A stretch of DNA of 38,221 bases from Clostridiales bacterium. GTDB lineage: Bacteria; Bacillota; Clostridia; Caldicoprobacterales; UBA3941. A model generated the notes under the pieces. It had not been told where the DNA came from, did not search any database, and saw only the letters and a list, made by a program, of their open reading frames with translations. Both the position numbers and the translations under genes were made by a program. Location of the stretch: positions 1-38,221 of the forward strand of contig JAAYSJ010000049.1 of the NCBI GenBank assembly GCA_012518395.1. The letters are read 5' to 3'. Positions 34,361 to 35,353 of this stretch are shown here, one piece after another (position 1 is the stretch's first letter; each line of letters opens with the position of its first letter).

Positions 34361-34759
34361 TTATTTATGATAAGGTTCATTATTTATAATCCGATAGGCT
34401 CTGTAAATTTGCTTATAGAGGATTATTAGCATCAAATTCCTGTCAATATCCATATTGGATATATTCAGTGCAAAATCGGCCTTTACCTTGGCATATTCAT
34501 CCTCGAAAACGAAAATCATATCGCTGGTGCCGCCTATTCCCAAAGCTTCTATTTTCCCAGCCAATTGATCTGAAGAAATAGACTCCCCGCTCTGGCCTAT
34601 TTTAAAAATATAAGCAGTATCCTTTATTTCCTTGTGGATGTTTACGCCAATTTTTAGTTCGACCCTACAATATTTGCCCAATCTTTTGGCATATTCATTT
34701 ATGCCCTCAAGGATAAATTTGTCCTTAATCTTTTTCCCTCTGATTATCTTTATCTTCAA
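34361..34759 (-). CDS. RlmH-like SPOUT protein lacking the GGSxG SAM loop but keeping the C-terminal tail
   Basis: MKIKIIRGKKIKDKFILEGINEYAKRLGKYCRVELKI...; C-term LYKQIYRAYRIINNEPYHK is intact; FVIGGSLGL equivalent replaced by FVFEDEYAK. Confidence 0.8.
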   Translation of the reverse strand: MKIKIIRGKKIKDKFILEGINEYAKRLGKYCRVELKIGVNIHKEIKDTAYIFKIGQSGESISSDQLAGKIEALGIGGTSDMIFVFEDEYAKVKADFALNISNMDIDRNLMLIILYKQIYRAYRIINNEPYHK

Positions 34760-34900
34760 TTTCTCAGGCTCCCGCTAATTGAGTTACTACATAAAATTCA
34801 ATCAAATTATTCCAAATCTATCATCACTATTAATTCCCTGCTACTGCCCGGTAAAAGCACTTTGGAAGTTATTGCGGTATTCAATATAATCGGATTACTT

Positions 34901-35353
34901 CTATTCTATTATATGTCTGATCTGGTCTAACAGAATTAGTCGCATTAGCTGATGTGGGAAGGTTAGCCTTGAAAAAGACAGCGATAAATCCGCCATTTTT
35001 AATATCCCTGCATCCAGCCCCAAGGAACCGCCGATTATAAAATCCACATTTTCCTTGCCTTCCTCCACCGCGTCCCGGATACTTTTTCTGAAATTTTCTG
35101 TAGATAAGGCTTTGCCTTCTATTGCCAACGCGATTATAAATGAATTAGGTCTGATTAAATTATTGATTCGTTGCCCTTCTTTTACCTTTACCATGTTAGT
35201 TTGAGCCAAGGATAGTCTTTCCGGCGTCCTTTCGTCGGTAACCTCCATGATTTCAACAGGACAAAATCGCCTCAGATTCAGGAGGGTTTTTTCAATATTC
35301 TGACGGAGATATTTTTCCTTGATTTTTCCTACCGCTATAATTCTTATGTCCAT
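34901..35353 (-). CDS. rlmH: RlmH-like SPOUT methyltransferase keeping the GGSLG loop but truncated at the C-terminus
   Basis: MDIRIIAVGKIKEKYLRQNIEKTLLNLRRFCPVEIMEVTDERTPERLS...FIIGGSLGLDAGILKMADLSLSFSRLTFPHQLMRLILLDQIRHIIE*; expected YRAxxIxxGxxYHK tail is absent. Confidence 0.85.
   Translation of the reverse strand: MDIRIIAVGKIKEKYLRQNIEKTLLNLRRFCPVEIMEVTDERTPERLSLAQTNMVKVKEGQRINNLIRPNSFIIALAIEGKALSTENFRKSIRDAVEEGKENVDFIIGGSLGLDAGILKMADLSLSFSRLTFPHQLMRLILLDQIRHIIE

Follow-up and report, generated by a model that had tools for sequence, protein, structure and literature searches.

We think it highly probable (about 0.82, by our own estimate) that two adjoining genes, here called A and B, make up a single split RlmH enzyme, that the B family has been spread by mobile elements, and that in the bacterial family described here the pair has become fixed without the element. 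RlmH is a small knotted enzyme in which identical chains do different jobs. Known also as YbeA or OrfX, it is the SPOUT methyltransferase for m3-Psi1915 of 23S rRNA, a homodimer with a composite active site (PMC5430550). In the arrangement that we propose, A would provide the SAM-binding knot, and B would provide the C-terminal tail (Tyr152, His153, Lys154) along with Arg142 and an RNA-binding pair, Lys25-Arg26. That is, an active site would arise only in the A–B dimer, an obligate heterodimer with one composite site, in which B would help to bind helix 69 and donate the catalytic tail in trans. The dimer, its activity, and the element ancestry of this particular pair are all inferences of ours, made with no biochemical data.

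The gene pair and the division of residues

The window—by which we mean the whole stretch of 38,221 nucleotides that was analysed—holds two adjoining RlmH-family open reading frames on its minus strand, and the details that a preliminary description had read from them by eye are correct. A keeps FIIGGSLGLD and FPHQLMR and ends at LLDQIRHIIE without the YHK tail; B ends in that tail and has neither of the two knot motifs (GGSLG and FPHQ). The features are as follows.

34901..35353, minus strand: A, the native rlmH minus its C-terminal tail and the predicted SAM-binding subunit; 150 aa, ATG start (PF02590 134.9 bits, profile 1-141 of 154; NF000985 185.4 bits)
35012..35041, minus strand: FIIGGSLGLD, the SAM-knot motif of A, missing in B (Gly107 column: A 27/27, B 0/35)
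34940..34960, minus strand: FPHQLMR motif of A, with the His129 equivalent, missing in B (His129 column: A 27/27, B 0/35)
34901..34933, minus strand: lesioned 3' end of A, LLDQIRHIIE and then a stop, with no YRAxxIxxGEPYHK
34760..34900, minus strand: gap of 141 bp between A and B, in which no recombinase or separate att site was recognised
34361..34759, minus strand: B, the putative tail-donating RlmH paralogue; 132 aa, TTG start (PF02590 80.2 bits, profile 1-154; B clade, support 100/99)
34682..34687, minus strand: Lys25-Arg26 of B, the RNA-binding pair of the tail monomer (35/35 B; Arg26 in only 13/27 A)
34436..34513, minus strand: stretch of B that has lost the GGSLG and FPHQ segments, FVFEDEYAKVKADFALNISNMDIDRN
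34412..34414, minus strand: AAG codon, giving Lys at the Glu138 position of B (in this genome only, among B proteins)
34364..34411, minus strand: intact catalytic tail of B, QIYRAYRIINNEPYHK (Arg142, Tyr152, His153, Lys154 in 35/35 B)

The Pfam cut-off for PF02590 is 27 bits. The NCBIfam RlmH equivalog NF000985 has a cut-off of 172, which A exceeds; B lies under every NCBIfam RlmH equivalog cut-off, its best score being 88.4 bits against 172. A complete rlmH elsewhere in the genome would have spoken against the pairing of A with B, and none exists in the window's 2.16-Mb assembly (98% complete), where a genome-wide PF02590 search gave two matches, A and B. We also ruled out an assembly error or frameshift as the source of the missing tail of A: the A proteins of related genomes lack YHK too, with other endings, so the loss is not a local sequencing slip.

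What makes the two defects worth taking together is the way in which they fall on the enzyme. In E. coli RlmH, the SAM monomer supplies Lys11, Lys42, and Arg43 and the tail monomer Arg25, Arg26, Arg142, and Arg154, and the variants Y152F, H153F, R154A, and E138A/Q are inactive (Koh et al., PMC5430550). Our residue counts come from 49 canonical sequences, 27 of A, and 35 of B, and are given in that order. Gly107 is present in 49, 27, and 0, His129 in 48, 27, and 0, Arg133 in 49, 23, and 0, and the Lys of the column adjoining Lys11 in 44, 26, and 6; 34 of the 35 B proteins have a deletion at the Lys42 position. Arg26 is found in 49, 13, and 35, Arg142 in 49, 16, and 35, Tyr152 in 49, 5, and 35, and His153 in 49, 4, and 35, with the YHK tail in every B. 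Glu138 is retained on both sides (49, 24, and 34). As far as these alignments can tell, then, the losses in A and B follow the crystal-structure assignment of residues to the two monomers of the E. coli enzyme.

The one B without Glu138 is the window's own. It has Lys there (YKQIYRAY), and the window's A has Asp; Glu stands at this position in all other B proteins and in all canonical RlmH examined. The Lys could be real drift or a consensus error in a metagenome-assembled genome (MAG), and because of it the window's pair is the one least certain to be active.

We also modelled the window's A, linker, and B as one chain, with stops read as glycine. Given a deep alignment for A, the fused model reached a pTM of 0.75, with pLDDT of ~90 in A and ~83 in B and low values only in the linker; given a deep alignment for B only, pTM was 0.46. 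Superposed on B. subtilis RlmH, the A half fits at 1.3 Å. Alignments that mixed A with B scrambled the halves and were dropped. The better run suggests a defined placement of B against A in the model; the contact between the B tail and the A knot was not measured, and the other run stayed at 0.46.

Recurrence of the pair and loss of the tail

The preliminary description had asked whether other genomes carry the same pair, and more than 30 do, across Bacillota. Four of the five other genomes of the window's family have both A and B, the fifth has B at a contig end, and no complete rlmH was found in the family. Beyond it, the pair occurs in one genome of the same order (G007) and in five of the same class (G058, G108, G136, G251, G360), and several other orders have it without a complete RlmH. 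A scan of named genomes with the B alignment found B in Lutispora saccharofermentans, Clostridium sp. cel8, Clostridium brassicae, Youngiibacter fragilis, Acidaminobacter, and Alkaliphilus, as well as in Brevibacillus massiliensis, Cytobacillus gottheilii, Bacillus mediterraneensis, Evansella, two Paenibacillus, Aquibacillus, and various MAGs. Within Bacillales, B is sporadic, being present in 1 of 299 genomes when the seed is excluded, and that genome carries one of the lesions listed below (DAYHTKP).

Whole-genome searches found at most one other RlmH in each genome with B, and it was mostly a lesioned A, ending (before the stop) in MGER, RGEP, YRNLL, DAYHTKP, GYRTKL, GEPYRL, CRLCRE, or ESAVKA. 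Four carriers have an A with an intact tail alongside B: the isolates P. alkaliterrae and Aquibacillus and two MAGs (G404, G417), which could be mixed assemblies. Whenever A and B share a contig, B lies downstream of the A 3' end.

It had also been asked whether loss of the tail and loss of the knot go together, and they do. We judged tail integrity by a proxy, the profile coordinate of the rlmH 3' end, in a class sample of 391 genomes drawn regardless of B. Every genome with B and a readable A proved to be lesioned, 11 of 11 (nine from the class sample and two from the window's family). Among genomes without B, the last profile position was reached in 62 of 63 (the other being cut by a contig end) and in 79 of 80 (the exception being G336), so a lesioned tail without B appears once in more than 140 readable genomes; B-less genomes with frameshifted or contig-cut copies were left out of the count. 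In G336, an element end severs the tail and B was not found; the contig stops within the element, which makes this genome either a counterexample or an incomplete case. Among the matches listed in a further profile search, only G108, which carries B, falls short of the tail. The Fisher p is ~6e-16 if genomes are taken as independent and ~1e-8 with an approximate family count; a phylogenetic independent-pairs test gave three pairs for and none against and is underpowered.

Both genes are under purifying selection, by the dN/dS check that had been proposed for them. Within the window's family, pairwise Nei-Gojobori comparisons put A at 0.15 and 0.17 and B at 0.18 and 0.11, between relatives and not on the window's own branch, and a canonical RlmH pair at similar divergence gave 0.15.

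Elements at the rlmH 3' end

Two genomes, those of Lutispora saccharofermentans and Clostridium sp. cel8, have a 15-16 kb serine-recombinase element in the 3' end of rlmH, and B is part of its cargo. The large serine recombinase (704-706 aa; PF00239, PF07508, PF13408) begins just past the severed rlmH, and the element also carries type I restriction-modification genes, a tyrosine recombinase, an RNase H-like gene, and B. The rlmH tail is neither kept nor rebuilt in cis, the two genes ending in MGER and RGEP. The empty site survives in a sister genome, G376, as GGGGGAGCCGTACCATAAGTAA; the Lutispora flank is 93% identical to it up to the junction and then reads GGGGGAACGGTGATTTACCGAATACATGACTCC. 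At the far end (attR), ~1.7 kb past B, ACACGGTGAACC is followed by TTATCACAAATAA in Lutispora and ATATCATAAGTAG in cel8, which are the severed YHK codons. The inner ends, GAATACATGACTC and GAGTCATGTATTC, repeat each other in inverted orientation and fit what one would expect of attP arms. Exact ends were determined in these two genomes and an empty site for one of them. We considered a swap of tails through an attR inside B and rejected it for both, given where attR lies and given that B has a tail of its own.

Elsewhere, the traces are more varied. G108 has an identical left junction and B but no recombinase, and its locus is a decayed element. P. senegalimassiliensis has a different serine recombinase beside A and att-like sites past B, and Youngiibacter and UBA4821 have a B whose own 3' end resembles an att site. 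Element genes are absent around the adjacent A and B of the window's family, Acidaminobacter, and others. The window has no element remnant beyond B; near rlmH only the B 3' end fits the att pattern, and the window's genome has no close match to the Lutispora recombinase. Domestication in the window is therefore an inference.

We lean toward the following account, with moderate confidence. Serine-recombinase elements would spread B by inserting into the rlmH 3' end; for some of them, integration would remove the host's YHK codons, and B would replace the tail in trans, so that host RlmH and the separate tail chain become an obligate heterodimer. Repeated loss of the element would then leave the enzyme permanently split, as in the window's family, where the pair would be domesticated and the element gone.

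Origin of the pair and relation to known systems

With the tail columns excluded, a maximum-likelihood tree unites 34 of the 35 B sequences in a single clade (support 100/99). The remainder is the B-like protein of G360, on a long branch, which may have an independent origin. A sequences stand beside the canonical relatives of their hosts. On this tree, 13 changes are required to account for tail loss, eight of them forced by well-supported branches, and the tail would on that basis have been lost in at least 8 separate events and probably 13. Between Cytobacillus and B. mediterraneensis, B has zero synonymous differences and the rlmH genes are distant; between Lutispora and G108, B is 92% identical in DNA and neighbouring host genes 66-70%. 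Judged by the tree and these identities, the B phylogeny is in conflict with that of the hosts.

This conflict bears on the rival that survives best, in which there is indeed a heterodimer but its origin was an ordinary duplication in the chromosome with division of labour, and elements acquired B only later. The idea remains possible, in our view, and we hold it without conviction: A and B are neighbours without element genes in the window's family, Acidaminobacter, and others, and the root of the B clade is unknown, but one B clade at odds with the host trees, a tail lost independently in each host, and a B found downstream of the A 3' end wherever the two share a contig are not what it would lead one to expect.

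Under a second rival, B acts on its own account, for example as a regulator, by competition with host RlmH, or as an element-encoded RNA-binding protein that has a target of its own, and insertion of the element costs A its tail only as a side effect. The four genomes with B and an intact A could be read in this way, as could the location of B among defence genes. What speaks against it, and leads us to call it quite unlikely, is that B retained precisely the tail-side residues and dropped precisely the SAM-side ones, that the tail-less A is under purifying selection, and that sibling elements that restore the tail have no B. Two such siblings, in G081 and G361, have recombinases at rlmH that are 68-71% identical to that of Lutispora, and their left end rebuilds the rlmH tail in cis (GGTGAACCGTATCATCGCTAA, GEPYHR and a stop). 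Each genome has a single RlmH match and hence no B; the G081 element is homologous to those of Lutispora and cel8 on both sides of B, and B is absent at that place.

That both genes are non-functional, decaying remnants of a duplicated or transposon-hit rlmH, which the preliminary description had named as its alternative, is very improbable and was not borne out: each gene does lack residues essential in E. coli, the window's B has Lys at the Glu138 position, and some relatives (family f2, same order) have no RlmH at all, which makes the enzyme dispensable there, but dN/dS is 0.11-0.18 for both genes, the tail is invariant in 35 B and the knot in 27 A proteins, and the pair, conserved across families and classes, recurs in more than 30 genomes. 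The split-enzyme reading is thus the one that we keep, and the heterodimer first proposed for the window is supported, with dimer formation and activity untested.

How does such an enzyme compare with what is known? The RlmH homodimer (PMC5430550) agrees with the proposed A/B enzyme in fold, in motifs, and in having a composite site to which one chain brings the SAM pocket and the other the tail; the A/B enzyme differs in using two genes, A without the tail and B without the knot, neither of which should work alone. SCCmec and the Enterococcus cassette chromosome (ECC) (PMC6222049) share serine recombinases, insertion at the rlmH 3' end, att sites on the GEPYHK codons, and defence cargo. As far as is known, rlmH there still encodes its tail, whereas the Lutispora and cel8 elements sever it and carry a tail-bearing paralogue. 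Islander genomic islands (PMC4383910) likewise split a conserved target gene and leave the displaced fragment at the far end, but they restore the gene in cis, as the G081 and G361 siblings do; here, restoration would be in trans, by a separate subunit. The trypanosome AdoMetDC-prozyme (PMC6221367), an enzyme-pseudoenzyme heterodimer, also went from homodimer to heterodimer after duplication. In the A/B case, neither chain is intact, and the line of division runs between the two halves of a composite active site. In the open-access literature searched, we found no comparable SPOUT case, no description of RlmH as a heterodimer, and no rlmH-targeting cassette reported to carry an rlmH paralogue (subscription papers lay outside the search).

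If we are right, natural A–B pairs divide the roles of RlmH genetically, and the asymmetric mechanism proposed from the crystal structure could be tested without engineered mutants. The element account offers a concrete route from homodimer to obligate heterodimer, in which one role is broken and then supplied in trans, and it gives an island a second way to spare its host, beside rebuilding the gene end in cis. There is also a practical point: annotation pipelines may label both genes RlmH and overlook that neither is complete.

Several smaller observations belong with these. B as phage, plasmid, or viral cargo was rejected, since only full-length RlmH turned up there. G251 (L050, 3464-4300), a 1.5-Mb single-contig genome and perhaps a relative of segmented filamentous bacterium, has a strongly eroded adjoining A/B pair, possibly a split of independent origin; in G360 (L049, 2646-3790), the A/B pair is convergent, and its B lies outside the B clade. 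Seven genomes of the sister family f2 (G006, G009, G012, G015, G018, G020, G022) gave zero RlmH matches, so m3-Psi1915 may be missing there.

P. alkaliterrae, a Paenibacillus, has two tandem Ccr-like serine recombinases downstream of its intact rlmH, an SCC-like cassette (L201 4225-7462), and its B is on another contig (L183) with type I restriction-modification genes. G295 has a recombinase 93% identical to that of Lutispora in the 3' end of an ABC transporter ATPase gene (L217, 6168-7805), together with an intact rlmH and no B. Displaced rlmH 3' fragments (G165:C10:7347-7542, G199:C208:1-87, G246:C17:19826-19906) are probably traces of islands that rebuilt the gene in cis. The Bacilli B loci L210 10457-14217 (G470), L207 11011-11370, and L076 3649-4711 have in common neighbouring small genes with a conserved FPW motif, perhaps the cargo of a second element type with left end GATGCTTACCACACCAAACCC. 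Outside Bacillota, the RlmH of an Acidobacteria MAG (L132) and of a Polyangiaceae MAG (L141) ends in PYPR and PYSH, respectively, rather than in YHK or YHR, and the genome with PYPR has one RlmH match.
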